In this document: in pieces, positions 88 through 9,257 of the stretch
How the letters are laid out: each line of letters begins with the position of its first letter
Numbering within the stretch: the stretch's first letter is position 1
Notes under the pieces: generated by a model
The model's input: only the letters and a program-made list of their open reading frames with translations
The model's database searches: none
What the model was told of the DNA's origin: nothing
Source: Bacteroidia bacterium
GTDB taxonomy: Bacteria > Bacteroidota > Bacteroidia > Bacteroidales > UBA932
Direction: 5' to 3'
Assembly: GCA_030537315.1 (NCBI GenBank)
Contig: JAUNNZ010000011.1
Span: 1 to 51,399 of the forward strand
Length of the DNA stretch: 51,399 bases
Position numbers and translations under genes: made by a program

Positions 88-1800
88 ATGAAAACTCTCA
101 AGACTATCATCTTTGCGTTCGCGGCACTTCTCGCGACGGTTGCGTGCACCAAGGAAGCGAATCCGAAAGAAAGCGTCCCGTCAGTACCCGGGACGATAGA
201 AGTCAGCGTCTCCGCCCTCATAGGAGACCTCGCCCCGTCGGAGGGGACAAAGGCGACAATGTCACCGGTAATCCGCCTGAACTGGGCGGATGGGGACGTG
301 GTGCTCGCATTCGATGCCACACAAAAGATTGGTGAGCTCACCGTAACCCCTGTCGAAGGCGGTTCAATCGCAAAACTGTCCGGAACAATAAGTACCCCAG
401 CCACAGGCACAACCAAAATCACCCTCGTGTACTCCAACCCTGCAGAAATTGCCCCGGAAATCAACGCCGGTAAAATCACCTTTGACCTTAGCACCCAGGG
501 CGCAGAAGCAAATAAGCTCGTGGTGTATTCTACGCTTGATTACGAAGAAGGCCTGACAAGCATCACCGACAAGATAGTGCCGTTCAAGTTCGCGACCTCC
601 CTTATGAGGGTGACGGTCACGGGAATGGCGGATGCGGACATCGACCATGCCATCGTCAGCAACGTGAACACCGTGTGTGAGCTGACTGTCTCAGCTGATG
701 CGGAGCCGGCTGTCGCAGGCACCACCTCGGGCACTATCATCAGAACCACTGGCTTCACCAGGTCAAATGACGGACGCGCCGTGTTCAACGTAAGCGTCGC
801 GGCAGAGGAAGAGAATACAGGAAGGAAACTCACCATCAAGCAGGGGACTCTGATCTACGGCTCAGATCTTATGTCGACGGCAATTGACGCAGGCACGTCC
901 ATCATCTCCGTCTATGCCCTGACAGAGCAGACGGGTTCAATGGGCAAGATCAACGGCCACGACTATGTCTATGTCGCCGGCAAGAAATGGGCGACCCAGA
1001 ACCTTACCATTTCCAGAAACACTCAAACCTCGGGCGACGCCCTTTGGAAACCGAATGGCTCATCAACTGTAAATGTCCCCAGAACCACCACCACCGGAGA
1101 GAAAATAGTAATCGGCGATTACTTCCAGTGGGGAGCGTATCCGGGATACTGCGGAGACGCCACCGCCGCCGACCAGGGTCTGCTGATTTATGAATCCTTC
1201 ACAAATGACGGTTCAAGCGGTTCTTTCTCGTTCAAATCGGACAACAAATTCAACAGCAAGAATACCGCACCATATGGAGGTTCACCTTACACCAGATACA
1301 ATGATAGAGACAAGACCTACAGGTCGAATCTCGACATCAGCGACGACGTCGCCCGCACTCTCTGGGGGGACACCTGGCGTATGCCTACATCGCAGGAGTT
1401 TATCGAGCTCTGCGCTGCGTGCTTCGTCGAGTGGGATGCTACGAACAAAGGCTTGCTGTTCTATGCTCCAAAAGATGCCGCCGACAAGGGCCTCTTGAAA
1501 TTGTCAGAAAGTAGTTGGAAGCAAATTACAGAAACAGCTACATCTTATGAGACAACAGCGAAGACCGCAACGGTAGGAACATATACCGCCACCGACGCTC
1601 TGTTGTTCTTCCCTGCTGCTGGCGGCGGCTTCAATGGTACTCTCAGCAGTGCGGGTACGTACGGCTACTACTGGTCAGGTACTCTCGGCTCTGTCAATGC
1701 AGACGGCGCGTACGACTTGCGCTTCGACGGTGGCAGTGTCGATCCGCAGTGCAGCAGCGTCCGTTACTTCGGCTTCTCCGTGCGTCCCCTCTCAGATTAA
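88..1800 (+). CDS. Surface lipoprotein, fimbrillin-like N-terminal part and FISUMP/C-type-lectin-like C-terminal domain
   Basis: A 570-residue secreted lipoprotein. The signal peptide ends in a lipobox with the lipidated Cys at residue 20, followed by a charged TKEANPKE stretch of the kind that can direct lipoproteins to the Bacteroidota surface. Residues about 40-280 have the SEGTKAT...LNWADGD pattern of fimbrillin-like beta proteins. From about residue 288 (GHDYVYVAGKKWATQNL) to the end is a FISUMP-type domain, with WRMPTSQEFIEL near residue 431 and the terminal WSGT...GFSVRP motif. This fold is related to C-type lectins. Between WSGT and GFSVRP most residues are encoded by codons ending in C or T, as in variable regions made by diversity-generating retroelements (see findings). 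The ligand is unknown; adhesion is inferred. The gene stands alone, and no TAnnTTTG box is visible in the 87 bases upstream. Confidence 0.8.
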   Translation: MKTLKTIIFAFAALLATVACTKEANPKESVPSVPGTIEVSVSALIGDLAPSEGTKATMSPVIRLNWADGDVVLAFDATQKIGELTVTPVEGGSIAKLSGTISTPATGTTKITLVYSNPAEIAPEINAGKITFDLSTQGAEANKLVVYSTLDYEEGLTSITDKIVPFKFATSLMRVTVTGMADADIDHAIVSNVNTVCELTVSADAEPAVAGTTSGTIIRTTGFTRSNDGRAVFNVSVAAEEENTGRKLTIKQGTLIYGSDLMSTAIDAGTSIISVYALTEQTGSMGKINGHDYVYVAGKKWATQNLTISRNTQTSGDALWKPNGSSTVNVPRTTTTGEKIVIGDYFQWGAYPGYCGDATAADQGLLIYESFTNDGSSGSFSFKSDNKFNSKNTAPYGGSPYTRYNDRDKTYRSNLDISDDVARTLWGDTWRMPTSQEFIELCAACFVEWDATNKGLLFYAPKDAADKGLLKLSESSWKQITETATSYETTAKTATVGTYTATDALLFFPAAGGGFNGTLSSAGTYGYYWSGTLGSVNADGAYDLRFDGGSVDPQCSSVRYFGFSVRPLSD

Positions 1801-1808
1801 TAAAAACA

Positions 1809-1849
1809 CAACTTTCCCAAGGCCTCCCAGTGAGGCCTCAGGAAAGTTG
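1809..1849 (+). terminator. Strong hairpin just after the lipoprotein stop codon
   Basis: Arms CAACTTTCC (1809-1817) and GGAAAGTTG (1841-1849) enclose a second stem GGCCTC (1821-1826)/GAGGCC (1832-1837). It begins 8 bases after the stop. There is no T-tract, so it is either a terminator or 3' stabiliser, or the stem-loop often found beside retroelement variable regions. Confidence 0.6.
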
Positions 1850-1863
1850 ACATCTTGAAAAAC

Positions 1864-1912
1864 TCAAAAGCATCATCGCGCCGCCCCCGGGGCGGCGCGT
1901 GGTGACTTTTGA
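1864..1912. repeat. All-GC 11-bp-arm palindrome inside a longer hairpin
   Basis: The core 1877-1899 consists only of G and C: arm CGCGCCGCCCC, one central base, then the exact reverse complement. It is nested in a second pair of arms, TCAAAAG (1864-1870) and CTTTTGA (1906-1912). Termination in either direction is possible because A and T runs flank it. A cruciform is equally possible. Confidence 0.7.
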
Positions 1913-1962
1913 AGGCCTCGGGCTGTCACTGTGTTAAATGAACCAGTTATGCCAGAAAATAT

Positions 1963-2055
1963 TTAGACGTTGAAGAGGAAGTGCATTATGTCGCCGTCCT
2001 GAACGACGTATTCCTTGCCTTCCACACCCATCTTGCCGGCCTCTCGTCCTTCCTC
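1963..2055 (-). pseudogene. ychF: 3' remnant of ychF (redox-regulated ATPase/OBG-like GTPase)
   Basis: The minus strand encodes about 30 residues, including [18 protein letters not shown] and [11 protein letters not shown] followed by TAA. This matches the very conserved C-terminal TGS end of the YchF family (E. coli YchF ends in a similar KDGDVMHFRFNV). Family members are about 365 residues, so over 90% of the gene is absent. The same frame upstream soon meets a stop (near 2095), and no G1-G4 GTPase motifs are present. I infer a leftover of a deletion or rearrangement. A functional ychF presumably lies elsewhere in the genome. Confidence 0.75.
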
Positions 2056-2680: not shown

Positions 2681-5458
2681 CTAGTTACAAACGTGAATTG
2701 ATTTGACCTCAACCACCTCGTCGTCCGGGACATACCAGACAGCGCCCTTGGGTTTATAGCCGAGCTGGCGGTAGAGTTTCATATAGGAGCGCACCTGCCA
2801 GATGTAGGATTCCTTGCGTTCAGCGCCGAACTTGTAATCGAGTACAAACACCTCCTGCCCGTTGAAGATGACGCGGTCCGGACGATGTTCCTGACCGTCC
2901 GTCCCGAATATCGTGACCTCGTCGCGGACATCGGTTGAAGAGAACCACTCCGGATGCGCAAGTATGCGCGCGGTCAGGAGGCTCCTGCTATCCGCATCAA
3001 GATCCGAAGGCAAGTCCTCCGGCGAGCGGACGCCTTCAAGGGCCTTGTGCAGCTCGATGCCCGACAGGCGGGCGGAAGCGGCGGGACCGGCAACGCCGTC
3101 CTCGCCGAAATAATCGGTCGCATCTTCCGACGGAGACAGGCGCCCGTCAAGAGGGAACGAAGGATAGCTTGCCGGGAAGTCCCCGACTTTCTGTCCCTTT
3201 TCCCTTACCATCCGGCTGAAATCGTATGGCTCTCCATAGAACTGGTTCTCAAGACCTCCGCAGAAAGCGTACAGTATCTCCGAGAACCTGCCGTACTCCT
3301 CCCTGCCTTTGGAATATGCCTCGCGGAACTTCTTCGAAGGGGTCTTAGAGATTACGTGGAGACATTTCCCGGCACGGGTCAGGGCAACGTAGAATACGTT
3401 TATGTTGTCAACCTTCTGCAGGAACTCCTCGCGGTCAAGGTCTTTCGCGAACAGGGTCTTCCTGCTGGCTCCGGACGTAAGCGACACCGGATAGTTGCCG
3501 GTTACGACACTGCCGAGAGGTGAATCATCGGCATCCAGATGGCACCATTCGGTGGTTTCCCTGAAGAACCCCACGGTATCGGCGAACGGGAAGATGACAT
3601 AAGGGAACTCAAGGCCCTTCGACTTATGTATCGTCAGTATTCTGATGGAATCGGAATCTTCCGGCGAACCTATGTATGGATTGGCGTCAGCCCAGTGCTT
3701 GAGGAATGCGCGGAGGTTGTTGCCGTTCACATCGACCCATTCGCGCAGGCCGTCCATAAAGGCCTGGATGAACAATGTCTCTCCCTCGAAGGAAGAAGGG
3801 TCATAGTCACGCAGCGAGCGCAGGAGTTTCTCGCAGAGGTCAACCAGAGAATGGTAGCGGTCAGGGAACTCTACCCCGAGCTGATGCGCGAGATAGCTGC
3901 CGACAGTGTTGTCAGGATTCTCGATGGAGCTCAGCAGGGACACAAGACGGCGTACCACGGCCGACGACTTCACAGCAAGGGAATCGTCGGAGATGACGGG
4001 AAGATTATGGTTTATGAGCTCTTCCGCGACAGCGGATCCGTCCGCGTTCTTGCGGACGAGGATGGCGATGTCGCTCCAGCGGGCGCCCGCGTTGCGGGCG
4101 GACTGCACGGACCCGATGACAGCCGCCATCTGGTCATCCGTGAAGGTAACCTGAACGCTGCCTTTCTGCTCTTCACCGGATTTCTTTTCCTGTTTCACAT
4201 CCGCGTAAATCTCTCTCGCGCCTATCACTTCCGCAGCCCGCTTGAAGAAGCGGTTGTTGAAGTCCACCACCATCTGCGAGCTGCGCCAGTTGCACTCCAT
4301 CGGCTCCGGCTTCACGTCCGGGAACGCCTCCTCGACCTCGTGTCCCAGAAGTTCCCAGTCAGAGTTGCGCCAGCGGTAGATGCTCTGCTTGACGTCCCCC
4401 ACTATGAGGCTGCTTGACTCCTTGTCGGGTGCGTTCGCCTCGCTTTCACGGAGCAGAGGCAGGAAATTGTCCCACTGTATGCGGGAGGTGTCCTGGAATT
4501 CGTCCAGGAGGAAATGCTCGAAGCGCACGCCGAGCTTTTCGTAGACGAAAGGTGCGTCCGAGCCGTCGATGATGTCGCGCAGGATGGTGTTGGAATCGTC
4601 CAGCGGCATCACGTTCTTCTCCTTCAGCAGCGCGTCGAATTCCTTGTAGAATTCTCCGGCGAGGCCGAGCGAAAAGACCAGCTTGTCTATGCAGTATGCC
4701 GTGCAATAATAGTCATACGGCTTTTCGAAAAGCAGCGCGAGTTCCGGGTCGTTCTTCTTCGCGGTCTTGTTCGGCTCCTGTATCTTCTCGCCCGGCTCAG
4801 ACTTTATGCCAAAGGCCTCCGCCTTCTTCCTGAAGTCGTCGATGACTGCACGGCAGGACTTGCGGATTTCATCCAGGCGCGCCTTGGAGAACTCGTCGGC
4901 ATCATTCAGGCCGTACTTTTCCTGAAGCTGCCTGTGGCTCTCGCTCTTCAGCAGCTTGCCTATCTCTCCCAGACCGTCGTCAATGACGAACTTCTGCCCC
5001 TGCTCGAGCTTGTCCATCGCGCTTCGGCGCAGCCAGTCGAGAAGGTCTTTCTTCTCGAGGGTCAGTCCGTCGAGGATGCGGTCCATCGATTCCTGGATGA
5101 GGGAGTTGCGGTCAAGTTCTATCTGATAGGACGAGAACTGCCCTATCTCGCGGGAGAATGCCTTGAGGGCCTGCTGGAAGAATTTGTCTATGGTGCTTAC
5201 CGCAAAGGCGCTGTAGTCGTGTAGGATGTTCACGAGGACCTCTCGCGCGCGGGATGCGCGCGGGCCACCCTCCTCCGCCTCCTTCTTGAGGTCGCGGAGG
5301 ATGCGGGACTTCATCTCGGCGGTCGCCTTGTTGGTGAAGGTGACCGCGAGTATGTGGCGGTACGCATACGGATCCCCCGACTGCAGGAGCATATCGATAT
5401 ATGTGTGCGAGAGGGCGTAAGTCTTGCCCGAGCCCGCCGATGCCTTCAGTACTTTCAT
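2681..5458 (-). CDS. addA: AddA/RecB-like helicase-nuclease subunit
   Basis: A 925-residue UvrD/Rep-type (SF1A) helicase with a C-terminal PD-(D/E)XK nuclease. It is one half of a dimeric double-strand-break processing enzyme that resects ends for RecA loading. Visible motifs are Walker A ASAGSGKT at residues 6-13, a Walker B-like LLDEFQDTSR near 317, motif V/VI-like TIHKSKGLEFPYV near 607, and nuclease residues RPD (Asp861) with DYK (Asp874, Lys876). It is shorter than E. coli RecB (about 1180) but typical for Bacteroidota AddA-like proteins. Its ATG overlaps the stop of the upstream addB-like gene as ATGA, so the two are translationally coupled. The 3' end abuts the mosaic region. Confidence 0.88.
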   Translation of the reverse strand: MKVLKASAGSGKTYALSHTYIDMLLQSGDPYAYRHILAVTFTNKATAEMKSRILRDLKKEAEEGGPRASRAREVLVNILHDYSAFAVSTIDKFFQQALKAFSREIGQFSSYQIELDRNSLIQESMDRILDGLTLEKKDLLDWLRRSAMDKLEQGQKFVIDDGLGEIGKLLKSESHRQLQEKYGLNDADEFSKARLDEIRKSCRAVIDDFRKKAEAFGIKSEPGEKIQEPNKTAKKNDPELALLFEKPYDYYCTAYCIDKLVFSLGLAGEFYKEFDALLKEKNVMPLDDSNTILRDIIDGSDAPFVYEKLGVRFEHFLLDEFQDTSRIQWDNFLPLLRESEANAPDKESSSLIVGDVKQSIYRWRNSDWELLGHEVEEAFPDVKPEPMECNWRSSQMVVDFNNRFFKRAAEVIGAREIYADVKQEKKSGEEQKGSVQVTFTDDQMAAVIGSVQSARNAGARWSDIAILVRKNADGSAVAEELINHNLPVISDDSLAVKSSAVVRRLVSLLSSIENPDNTVGSYLAHQLGVEFPDRYHSLVDLCEKLLRSLRDYDPSSFEGETLFIQAFMDGLREWVDVNGNNLRAFLKHWADANPYIGSPEDSDSIRILTIHKSKGLEFPYVIFPFADTVGFFRETTEWCHLDADDSPLGSVVTGNYPVSLTSGASRKTLFAKDLDREEFLQKVDNINVFYVALTRAGKCLHVISKTPSKKFREAYSKGREEYGRFSEILYAFCGGLENQFYGEPYDFSRMVREKGQKVGDFPASYPSFPLDGRLSPSEDATDYFGEDGVAGPAASARLSGIELHKALEGVRSPEDLPSDLDADSRSLLTARILAHPEWFSSTDVRDEVTIFGTDGQEHRPDRVIFNGQEVFVLDYKFGAERKESYIWQVRSYMKLYRQLGYKPKGAVWYVPDDEVVEVKSIHVCN

Positions 5459-8319
5459 CGTCCGCAGATCATTTTGAAGTCACAGTATTCACAGGTCTTC
5501 GTCTCTTCCGTCCGCTTCCACGGTATGGCCGGATCGGCAAGTTCCTTCAGTTTGTCCTCAAGGGCCCTGTCCATCAGTTCGGTGAATTCAGGCACCAGGC
5601 TCACTTCCTCGACCTCCTTCACGAAAAGTCGGGAGGTCTGGTAGATGGAGTTCACGATCTCCTTGCCGGCAAACTGGCGGTCCTTTGCGATGAACCTGTC
5701 GTAAAGGTACAGCTGCAGGGCGATCTTCGGACGGTTCTGCTCCTTGTCGCCGAACAGTTTGTCCACCACCTGCTGCGCATTGGCGGCGGTGATGTTGAAG
5801 TCTTCGTCCGTGACCCTTCCCGTCTTGTAATCGACGATGCGCACCCGGTCGGGCGTGAAGCTGTCCAGGCGGTCGAGGTAGCCGACGAACCTGAACCCTC
5901 CGATATCGTCATGCCTTGATTTCTCGAGCAGATGGATGTGGAACCTGTCCACCCCATATCTGTCCATCAGTTCCCTGTCGCGCTGCAGTACCTTCTTGAC
6001 GTATTCGCAGACGACTTCCTGGAAGATGATGTTGCGGCCTTCGATGTCGAAGGTCTTAAGGGTCTCACGGATCTGGCCCGCAACGGTGTCGCGTATCGCG
6101 GACTCATCCTTGAGAAGCGAGTCTATGTATGATGCGGTGATGTCCGCCTTCCCGTCGTACAGCGCCTTCATCGAATTATGGAACACCGTGCCCAGCATTC
6201 CCGCATCCAGGGACTCCGACACCTCGTCGTTTTCCTTCAGGCCTTCCACCGACCCGTAGTAGAACTTCGCCGGGCAGCTCAGGTAGTTCTGCATCGAGGT
6301 GGCTGAAAGGTGGCCCTCCGCGCGGAGTCTGTCGATCTGCTCCTGCGTCTTCGGGATGCTTCCGTCAAGGTCGCCCCTGCCGATCGGCGCCTTGACGACA
6401 AGGCGGCGGACCGGGAGGCCGAAGTGCAGCTCCAGCTGCTTGATGTATCTGCTTTCCTCGCCTCCGCGAAGACCTTCGGCGCGTGAGTCGAAGAGCATCC
6501 AGACCTTGCCGGCACGCTGGATCATACGGTAGAAGTAGTATGCCCACACGGCATCCTGGTATTCGTAGGTAGGAAGGCCGAAGCCTTTGCGCAGCTCCGG
6601 CGGGATAAATGACGAGCTGACGCTGCGGCGGGGGAACATGCCCTCGTTGCAGCTCAGCAGTATGACGTTTTCGAAGTCGAGGGCGCGAGTCTCCAGCGGC
6701 CCCATTATCTGCAGGCCCTTCAGCGGCTCGCCCTGGAACGGGACGGAGGTGCCGCCGACGAGCTGGGCGAGGAGGCGGAAGTACGTTGCGGGAAGCAACG
6801 GGAGGTCCGCCTTGCGCAAATACCCGACGGTCTGGTGGTAAACGCGGGCGAAGTCAAGTTCCACGGCCATATCGTCCGCTTCCTTGAGTCTGGGGCCGAT
6901 ACAGGTTATGATGTCCTGCTGATAACATTCTATGGCCTGTATGGCCTCGGGAGATGTGCCGGAAGGGTCGGTGACCGCCGGCTTGAAGATGGCTTCCAGC
7001 ACCGGATCGCCGGTGAACTCGGACTGGGGGATGTAGTATTTGACCCCTTTCTTGATATTCCTTACGGTTTCCCTGCCTGCGTCAGTGAGTGCCGACTTGA
7101 AGACGGAGTTGGAGAAGATGGCCCAGACCTGCCTGTGGTAGAAGAACCACCCGCCGTCTTTCTGGCGGAGGTGCATCTGCAGGGCGGCAACGTCGTTCAT
7201 AAGACCCCAGAATTCGCTTTCGCCCATCGGGTAGCCCATCGTGACGTTGAGGTCTGTGATCGACTCCGGGATCGAATTGAGCACAGGCATCAGCAGGCCT
7301 TCGTCGGGCAGCACGATTGCCGTCTCCAAGCCGGGCGTCCCCGCACCCAACCGTTTTAGGATCTCGGGCAGCTGCTTGGCCATACCTATGCTGCTCGGCA
7401 CGCTGAGGACGTTTATCTCGGGGTCGCTGTACCCTTCCGGATCCGGCTTGAACGCCTGCGGGAATCGCACCACGTTGTCGGCCATAAAGAACGAGGACTT
7501 GTTGGCGGGGTCCTTGATCATGGCCGTGCCGTAGTCCCAGCAGAACTGCGCGACACCCGCGTCGCGCATCCTGCCCATCAGCTTCTTCTCGCACTCTGAG
7601 AGCGCGTTCAGGCCAACGAACACGAAGGACGTGCTGTGCGGGAAATGCTCCGCGAGGATGTCGGTCACGGATTCGCTGTCCAGGCGTTCGGCCATCTCGC
7701 GATAGACCTTGCCCTCGTAGCTCAGATGCTTTTCGGTGAGGGCGGCGTTGAAATCGGTGTACAGCCTGTAAAGTATGTCCCAGATCTGGAGGAACTTGAC
7801 CTTGTAGTCCTTTTCGTCCTCACTCTTCAAATCCACCGTCAGGGCCGAGTTCCTGTCGCGGAAATGGTCCAGGAAGCGCTCTATGGCGTCTATCTGCCCC
7901 TGCGAGAGGTATGAGTAGGTGTCCTGTATGCTCTTGAAGTCCGCCACGTTGGCGAAAAGTCCCTCCGCCTTCACCAGATACTTGTCCACATCGTCGAAGT
8001 CAGCGAGGAGTACGTCCCCCCAGAAGATGAAGTCGTCGAGCGGCTCCGGCTTCGGGACCAGCACCTTGTACCGGTCGTAAAGCTCAAGCAGCAGCCGCAC
8101 ACGGTCGGTCGGCTCCTCCGCCGTCAGGCGGTAGAAGAAATCGTTCATCGTGAACATCGCCGGAGCCGTCACCGGCTTCGAGCCGTCCTTGGCCACGCAC
8201 GCGCCCAGCCACTTCCTGAAGAATGACTTTGCGCGTCGGTTCGGGAAGATGAAGCATATATCCCCGATATTTCCCTGCGCGTAATAATGATTTGCTACCT
8301 GTTGCAGAAAAGGAGTCAT
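5455..8319 (-). CDS. addB: AddB-like PD-(D/E)XK nuclease/helicase-fold subunit
   Basis: 954 residues; partner of the downstream AddA-like helicase. The N-terminus (CFIFPNRRAKSFFRKW) has the helicase-like fold but no Walker A lysine motif, as is usual for this Bacteroidota family. The C-terminal nuclease shows GYLDRLD...DYKTG. Four cysteines suit the iron-sulfur staple of AddB: one in YLSCPAKFYYG and three in CEYCDFKMIC (about residues 943, 946, 952). I chose the ATG at 8319 over an upstream TTG because the TTG lies inside the -7 promoter box (8323-8330). That placement predicts transcription starting at the ATG itself, giving a leaderless message. It is divergent from the transglycosylase gene and overlaps addA by 4 bases. 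Confidence 0.86.
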   Translation of the reverse strand: MTPFLQQVANHYYAQGNIGDICFIFPNRRAKSFFRKWLGACVAKDGSKPVTAPAMFTMNDFFYRLTAEEPTDRVRLLLELYDRYKVLVPKPEPLDDFIFWGDVLLADFDDVDKYLVKAEGLFANVADFKSIQDTYSYLSQGQIDAIERFLDHFRDRNSALTVDLKSEDEKDYKVKFLQIWDILYRLYTDFNAALTEKHLSYEGKVYREMAERLDSESVTDILAEHFPHSTSFVFVGLNALSECEKKLMGRMRDAGVAQFCWDYGTAMIKDPANKSSFFMADNVVRFPQAFKPDPEGYSDPEINVLSVPSSIGMAKQLPEILKRLGAGTPGLETAIVLPDEGLLMPVLNSIPESITDLNVTMGYPMGESEFWGLMNDVAALQMHLRQKDGGWFFYHRQVWAIFSNSVFKSALTDAGRETVRNIKKGVKYYIPQSEFTGDPVLEAIFKPAVTDPSGTSPEAIQAIECYQQDIITCIGPRLKEADDMAVELDFARVYHQTVGYLRKADLPLLPATYFRLLAQLVGGTSVPFQGEPLKGLQIMGPLETRALDFENVILLSCNEGMFPRRSVSSSFIPPELRKGFGLPTYEYQDAVWAYYFYRMIQRAGKVWMLFDSRAEGLRGGEESRYIKQLELHFGLPVRRLVVKAPIGRGDLDGSIPKTQEQIDRLRAEGHLSATSMQNYLSCPAKFYYGSVEGLKENDEVSESLDAGMLGTVFHNSMKALYDGKADITASYIDSLLKDESAIRDTVAGQIRETLKTFDIEGRNIIFQEVVCEYVKKVLQRDRELMDRYGVDRFHIHLLEKSRHDDIGGFRFVGYLDRLDSFTPDRVRIVDYKTGRVTDEDFNITAANAQQVVDKLFGDKEQNRPKIALQLYLYDRFIAKDRQFAGKEIVNSIYQTSRLFVKEVEEVSLVPEFTELMDRALEDKLKELADPAIPWKRTEETKTCEYCDFKMICGR

Positions 8320-8362: not shown

Positions 8363-9247
8363 ATGAAAAAGTTGTCAACAGCCTCCGCTCTCGCATTATC
8401 ACTGTTCTTGGTAGCAATCCTCCCTGCCGGCGCGCAGACCCTCTTCCAGCCGGAAGAGCTTCACAAGCAGCCGCCGAAGGTCCCGGCATACGCCGTCTTC
8501 GCCGGCGACACCATCCGCTTCGACCGTCAGGATTTCTATGAGAGTATGGACCGCGAGCTCATCGCCTTCACGTATATGCACAGCACCACTCTCCTGATGC
8601 TCAAGCGCGCCCCGCGCTTCTTCGCCCAGGTCGAGCCCATACTGAAGGCAAAAGGAGTTCCAGATGACCTGAAATATCTGATGGTGATAGAGAGCAACCT
8701 CGACCCGACTGCAGTGTCAACGGCCAAGGCCGCAGGCCTGTGGCAGTTCACCAAGGCAACCGCACAGAGATATGGCCTCGAGGTCTCCGACGAGGTCGAC
8801 GAACGCTATCACATAGAGAAGGAGACCGAAGCCGCCTGCAAATATCTCCTTGAGGCGCATGCCAAATACGACGACTGGTTCACCGTCGCCGCCAGCTACA
8901 ACGCCGGTCAGGCCGGCATCTCCAAAAGGCTCGAAAGCCAGCACCAGAGCACCGCTCTTGAACTCTGGCTCCCGGCCGAGACCGCCCGCTATATGTTCCG
9001 CATCATAGCTGCCAAGATGCTTTTCGAGCACCCTGAATCATTCGGCTTCCACATCACCCCCGGCGAAGGCTACCCGTACATCCCGCCAAGGACATCGGTG
9101 ACCATCAGCGACCCGATCCCGGATCTCGCCGACTTCGCCGAAGAACATGGCACCAATTACAACCAGCTCAAAAAGGCGAATCTGTGGCTCCGTGACAGCA
9201 AGCTGACCAACAAGAACCACAGATCCTACACGGTGCTCATTCCGTAA
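8363..9247 (+). CDS. Periplasmic lytic transglycosylase (SLT/MltD-like)
   Basis: 294 residues with a cleavable signal peptide ending ...LPAGAQT. The SLT domain spans roughly residues 95-210 and cleaves the MurNAc-GlcNAc bond of peptidoglycan. The catalytic Glu is residue 110 in VIESNLDP, followed by the family motifs KAAGLWQF and AASYNAGQ. The tail after residue 255 (DFAEEHGTNYNQLKKANLWLRD) resembles the reduced LysM-like end usual in Bacteroidota MltD proteins, so the gene looks complete. The last 33 codons are duplicated in inverted orientation at 2445-2555. Confidence 0.85.
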   Translation: MKKLSTASALALSLFLVAILPAGAQTLFQPEELHKQPPKVPAYAVFAGDTIRFDRQDFYESMDRELIAFTYMHSTTLLMLKRAPRFFAQVEPILKAKGVPDDLKYLMVIESNLDPTAVSTAKAAGLWQFTKATAQRYGLEVSDEVDERYHIEKETEAACKYLLEAHAKYDDWFTVAASYNAGQAGISKRLESQHQSTALELWLPAETARYMFRIIAAKMLFEHPESFGFHITPGEGYPYIPPRTSVTISDPIPDLADFAEEHGTNYNQLKKANLWLRDSKLTNKNHRSYTVLIP

Positions 9248-9257
9248 GCAGAGACTT
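9147..9257 (+). repeat. 111-bp inverted repeat, copy 2 (in the intact gene)
   Basis: Covers the last 33 codons of the transglycosylase gene, its stop and ten following bases. It matches copy 1 at 2445-2555 with one mismatch (at 9176). It is the likely source copy because it is continuous with the intact reading frame. Confidence 0.9.

Follow-up and report, generated by a model that had tools for sequence, protein, structure and literature searches.

A diversity-generating retroelement (DGR) uses a reverse transcriptase (RT) that copies a template RNA and misreads its adenines; the mutated cDNA then replaces the 3′ end of a target gene. The canonical cassette, from BPP-1, is described in the order mtd with its variable region (VR), avd, template (TR) and brt (PMC3240598, PMC6642488). 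According to the account of BPP-1 hairpins, it is the structure of the stem and not its sequence that matters, and the loops are GRNA (PMC3240598).

Targets have also been described away from a retroelement. In Thiohalocapsa PB-PSB1, VRs are reported that lie far from any RT; for some of them the genome has no matching template (DGR 7), and others are served in trans (PMC10907252). Partial DGRs consisting of a target, a VR and cis elements are described in Nanoarchaeota (PMC4372165), and DUF1566 (Lcl_C) proteins, including lipoproteins, are reported as DGR targets (PMC6642488). Given that remote and template-less targets, partial DGRs and DUF1566 or lipoprotein targets appear in these accounts, the system that we describe here is already known in kind. 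A large survey states that it was unable to detect remote targets (PMC8144416).

We analyzed a window of 51,399 nucleotides, which is all of contig C6 in a Bacteroidales assembly of 1.9 Mb (60 contigs, 82.4% complete). A gene for a predicted lipoprotein has its start codon at base 88, and therefore close to the contig end. Judging from sequence comparisons, we put the probability at roughly 0.86 that this gene is a DGR target whose VR was written not from TR0, a template on contig C2 of the same assembly, but from a second template, which we call TR-B and whose sequence would be shared with that of the orthologous target in another species (genome G207). In the mechanism we propose, an RT would copy the template RNA, misreading its adenines, and the mutated cDNA would replace the 3′ end of the lipoprotein gene, with hairpins past the stop codon helping to mark the site. 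The writer of this VR would be TR-B, distinct from TR0, and TR-B would lie in an unassembled part of the genome or would have been present recently and then lost. The relevant features of the window are as follows.

88 to 1800, plus strand: target gene, predicted lipoprotein of 570 aa (ORF; orthologue in G207; Lcl_C match under the cut-off)
1594 to 1796, plus strand: VR, which can be aligned both to TR0 of C2 and to the VR of G207
1651 to 1770, plus strand: VR core of 40 codons, with 14 first-, 12 second- and 0 third-position differences from the G207 orthologue
1771 to 1796, plus strand: invariant 3′ end of the VR, GGCTTCTCCGT...TCAG, identical in the window and G207 and near-identical in TR0
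1809 to 1849, plus strand: hairpin 1, about 8 bases past the stop codon, with an outer stem of 9 bp and an inner stem of 7 bp
about 1864 to 1912, plus strand: hairpin 2, holding a perfect G+C-only palindrome (1878 to 1898) and present at the C2 target too
1963 to 2040, minus strand: remnant of the ychF 3′ end, within a 150-bp stretch (1891 to 2040) with 94% identity to the G207 locus

The reading frame from 88 to 1800 is intact, and the N-terminus of the protein, MKTLKTIIFAFAALLATVAC, is what we take, by eye, to be lipobox-like. The invariant segment at 1771 to 1796 is presumably the place of the IMH (initiation of mutagenic homing) motif. A preliminary description of the window had counted 24 codons ending in C or T among the 29 between WSGT and GFSVRP, and we obtained the same number (window 1684 to 1770, codons 533 to 561). 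Before this block, 301 of 532 codons have such endings. The bias alone is weak evidence, since 4 of the 504 windows of 29 codons in the rest of the gene also reach at least 24 (maximum 25). It is the comparisons with TR0 and the orthologue in G207 that raise the observation above chance.

The comparison with G207 is decisive. This genome belongs to another species (assembly 97% complete), and its orthologue of the window target has 72% identity over the matched part. In a VR core of 43 codons, the two genes have 14 differences at first positions, 12 at second positions and none at third positions (26 vs 0). The full VR block of 66 codons has 17, 16 and 2 differences, and both third-position differences are in its 5′ part. 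In the gene body, by contrast, the 465 aligned codons have 91, 87 and 124 differences at positions 1, 2 and 3 (178 vs 124). When sites are classed by their base in TR0, which serves as an external reference, 24 of 41 adenine sites have diverged between the two VRs, compared with 2 of 103 others (Fisher P 2.7e-14). Thus, when homologous loci are compared, as the preliminary description had suggested, the variation is indeed concentrated at template-adenine sites.

To put these numbers in context, a recB-like gene, the single gene on which the background was calibrated, differs between the window genome and G207 at 365 of 912 third positions (~40%). Relative to this background, the 2 differences at 66 third positions mean that the frame of the VR is far more alike in the two genomes, while its residues are far less alike. 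The pattern resembles that of TR/VR and VR/VR pairs inside one DGR, which have 0 to 2 third-position differences. Among the same-length pairs listed (those with at most 6 such differences), the other between-genome pairs all involve one locus, G035C138, and have 6 each. Given that third positions are unchanged in the core and that the differences are confined to adenine sites, both VRs were probably written from one shared template.

The two targets are also syntenic, as indicated by the 94% identity over window 1891 to 2040. In G207 the target is followed by an insertion and then by ychF (named by eye), the 3′ part of which persists behind the window target. The loci are unusually alike outside the VR as well, both in the gene body (97 of 100 bases at window 901 to 1000) and over the 150 bp downstream. 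Since parts of the gene body and flanks show this unusual likeness, a recent exchange of the locus is possible.

The insertion between target and ychF in G207 (contig C23, L069:6338-9250) has hipA/hipB-like and transposase-like ORFs (by eye), a duplicate of part of the upstream locus, and a second, truncated VR joined to sequence that comes after hairpin 2. In the window, positions 2346 to 2379 form a near-perfect inverted repeat of 34 bases (94% against its own complement). Positions 2445 to 2625 consist of inverted pieces of window 9136-9257 and 6694-6762, 90-97% identical and placed side by side, and are rearranged gene remnants.

A search of the window's own assembly found one RVT_1 match and two VR homologues at E 1e-16 or better, all of them on contig C2. 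This contig of 4249 bases is a textbook DGR, in the order target-VR, Avd-like, TR0, RT.

265-1839: lipoprotein target, then hairpins
1979-2695: Avd-like ORF (PHROG Avd, E 0.011; MutS_I, E 0.0041, below the cut-off)
about 2800-2993: template TR0
within ORF 2928-4079: RT, whose true start is further inside the ORF

Of 194 sites compared between the C2 VR and TR0, 21 are mismatched, and all 21 are at TR adenines. The RT is above the Pfam cut-off and matches the PHROG reverse transcriptase family (E 5.5e-97). Its best PDB relative is 8ub7 (E 4e-35), which we take to be the BPP-1 DGR RT complex. The RT has the motifs IGNLTSQ and YVDD, and [ILV]GxxxSQ is a hallmark of DGR RTs. The preliminary description had proposed a DGR variable region with its RT outside the window; a DGR-type RT and a template do sit on another contig of the same assembly. 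The window target has VR variation confined to template-adenine sites, a DGR-type RT in its assembly and a downstream inverted repeat. C2 is short, its G+C content (50%) is below that of the window (55%), and it could be misbinned.

The accessory protein of this DGR family (L009:1979-2695, L104:690-1406) has ~238 aa, as opposed to the usual short Avd. It appears fusion-like, with the weak MutS domain I match (E 0.0041) in its N-terminal part and the weak Avd match (E 0.011) in its C-terminal part. We also considered a phage origin of the cassette and rejected it. None of the RT relatives in 104 phage records reaches 60% identity, with 41% the best among those listed, and the best relative in IMG/VR has only 44%.

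Relatives of this DGR occur elsewhere in the genus. At E 1e-3, 9 of 101 genus genomes contain VR-like DNA, and at E 1e-8 it is present in 8 of 400, in a genus of more than 400 genomes and with few candidates scored per genome. RT relatives at E 1e-10 are present in 14 of 101 genomes, although some are not DGR RTs, and the motif pair [ILVQ]GxxxS[QP] and YxDD occurs at 7 of the 19 RT loci tried. A sibling genome, G084, has one cassette, whose RT is a relative at 80% identity and whose cis VR has 22 adenine mismatches and 1 other. This genome has targets on other contigs, namely C1 (25 adenine and 2 other mismatches) and C35 (19 and 0), as well as a partial one on C53 (7 and 1) and a diverged one on C58 (25 and 20). 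Since targets on other contigs match the G084 template except at adenines, trans action is supported in the genus. The G084 cassette looks chromosomal, because its contig also has NRPS-like and groEL-like genes (named by eye). In another genome, G077 (L018:883-2429), two tandem lipoprotein genes with VR-like C-termini lie head to tail, an arrangement suggestive of target duplication.

It might be supposed that the C2 cassette likewise acts in trans on the window gene, with TR0 as its template, given that both are in the same assembly, that the window gene is related to the C2 target and its VR to the C2 VR, and that the two have both 3′ hairpins in common. We consider this very improbable, because the window VR has 27 adenine and 23 non-adenine mismatches to TR0, with 6 gap columns. 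Thus, 23 of 50 mismatches are off TR0 adenines, compared with 0 of 21 for the C2 target. The G084 template, TR84, fits no better (30 adenine and 21 other mismatches). The preliminary description had anticipated a near-copy of the VR next to an RT gene, differing only at template adenines; TR0 is next to an RT, but its non-adenine differences from the window VR do not agree with that expectation. Where TR0 has AAY codons in the compared stretch (n=16), the window has NNY at all 16 and AAY is kept at 1, while the residue is kept at 24 of the other 32 codons. NNY at every one of these codons is what mutagenesis at the adenines of a diverged template would give, and templates so far apart do exist in the genus, since TR0 and TR84 differ at 29 of 194 sites. 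The VR might also have arisen with no DGR at all, by ordinary diversifying selection or by gene conversion from silent copies, in a gene family that is multi-copy and variable in the genus and whose gene body is patchily conserved. This explanation is hardly credible, as neither process would spare third positions (26 vs 0) and non-adenine sites (24/41 vs 2/103), and the own assembly has no VR-like copies closer to the window VR than those on C2.

A further alternative is that the window gene is a retired target, i.e., that a DGR once wrote it, that the template is gone and that the sequence is now fixed in the lineage. Using the VR as query, we found no template matching it at non-adenine sites in the own assembly (82% complete) or in G207 (97%). 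An exact pattern of 34 bases that fits both template types has 2 matches in genome_contigs (G207 and G035), both of which are targets, and 0 in viral_contigs; these sets may lack the own genome and consist of contigs from 3 kb upward, and the pattern misses a template with one base changed. Moreover, the G207 orthologue has an interrupted hairpin 1, and G207 has several target-like genes, yet no RT of the C2 family at E 1e-5 and only 1 RVT_1 match, which is below the cut-off. These observations make a retired target possible, but we regard it as doubtful, because the VR third positions (2/66 vs 365/912) and the intact reading frame speak against it. With non-adenine sites of the VR so alike, it is unlikely that both lineages lost the template long ago, barring a recent exchange of the locus.

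Several candidates in G207 were rejected as sources. A cassette beside the orthologue is not apparent, as none of the ORFs of at least 100 aa in 15 kb is RT-like and the RT search of the genome was negative. The sequence at G207:C23:97221-97250, 3 kb downstream, is a truncated VR remnant, and those at C23:200836 and C12:251279 are further target-like gene ends. G207 has at least four such ends (C23 at 94 kb, C23 at 200.8 kb, and two in the 250-kb region of C12; L069, L106, L107, L070). Several targets, including that in the window, lie near contig ends, so it is plausible that a neighboring cassette was lost in assembly.

If TR-B wrote the VR, it may be unassembled, lost or never long resident. 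A tentative idea is that this template is mobile or shared between species, based on the near-identical non-adenine sites of the VRs despite the ~40% third-position divergence in the recB-like gene, and on a template that is seen in neither assembly, with no RT of the C2 family found in G207. If so, targets could persist after their own retroelement has gone, with transient DGRs acting on them. Alternatively, the 3′ ends of targets would themselves be passed between species.

The strong hairpin within 8 bases of the stop codon and the all-GC palindrome, which the preliminary description had reported, are both present (1809-1849 and 1878-1898). None of 100 shuffled versions of the window contained the palindrome. 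In the own assembly, a search with the whole 3′ block gave forward matches only in the window and at the C2 target, apart from two more matches of 15 bases at chance level (E 0.77). We therefore rejected the idea that the palindrome is a dispersed repeat, as it is only at these two targets in the own assembly. An intrinsic terminator seems unlikely as well, since a T-run behind the hairpin was not seen (by eye).

We compared 18 VR-like 3′ regions, and 11 have both arms of the hairpin 1 outer stem; all 9 pairs are present in 10 of these and 8 of 9 in G035C38, with compensatory pair types across loci at two stem positions. The 5′ arm alone is present in 3 of the 18 (G207C23, G084C1 and G084C35), and neither arm in 4 (G035C138, G018C38, G077 and G013). 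Given that G084 C1 and C35 are clean trans targets without a complete hairpin 1, the hairpin might not be strictly needed, or its loss might be recent. These two loci (L021:274-390 and L024:545-660) have the 5′ arm of hairpin 1 in common and diverge immediately after it. The end of their shared block at this arm could reflect biology or an assembly join.

With regard to the protein, the preliminary description had labeled the domain that ends in the variable tail as FISUMP/C-type-lectin-like. The label finds partial support: among 14 aligned homologues, 9 match Lcl_C and 3 match Fib_succ_major (Pfam, E <= 0.01), while the Lcl_C scores of the window protein itself, 16.6 and 19.2 bits, are under the curated Pfam cut-off of 34.9. 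The family profile has no PDB sequence match up to E 1. We infer that the tail is a C-type-lectin-like, surface-exposed binding domain, and the protein would be a surface adhesin.

Compared with the BPP-1 cassette as described, C2 has the same order and adenine-only TR/VR mismatches, and the window VR similarly lies at the end of its target gene, with a hairpin after it. Unlike BPP-1, the window target has no adjoining cassette in the window, and a template matching it was not found in the assembly. The hairpin loops at these loci lack the GRNA tetraloops described for phage DGRs, and a second, larger hairpin follows the first. The reported DUF1566 targets have the same kind of C-terminal domain as 9 of the 14 homologues, although the window protein is itself under the curated cut-off.

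The unusual part of our case is the near-identical VR frame in two well-separated species, with the template seen in neither assembly, which hints that a template sequence may be common to different species. It also means that a remote target can be recognized without its template from one orthologue pair, in which first and second positions have changed heavily but third positions have stayed fixed. A close parallel is PB-PSB1, where VRs are likewise described as remote from an RT and some of them as lacking a matching template. In PB-PSB1, diversification is reported from population reads, whereas our case is a comparison of two species and concerns lipoproteins of Bacteroidales.
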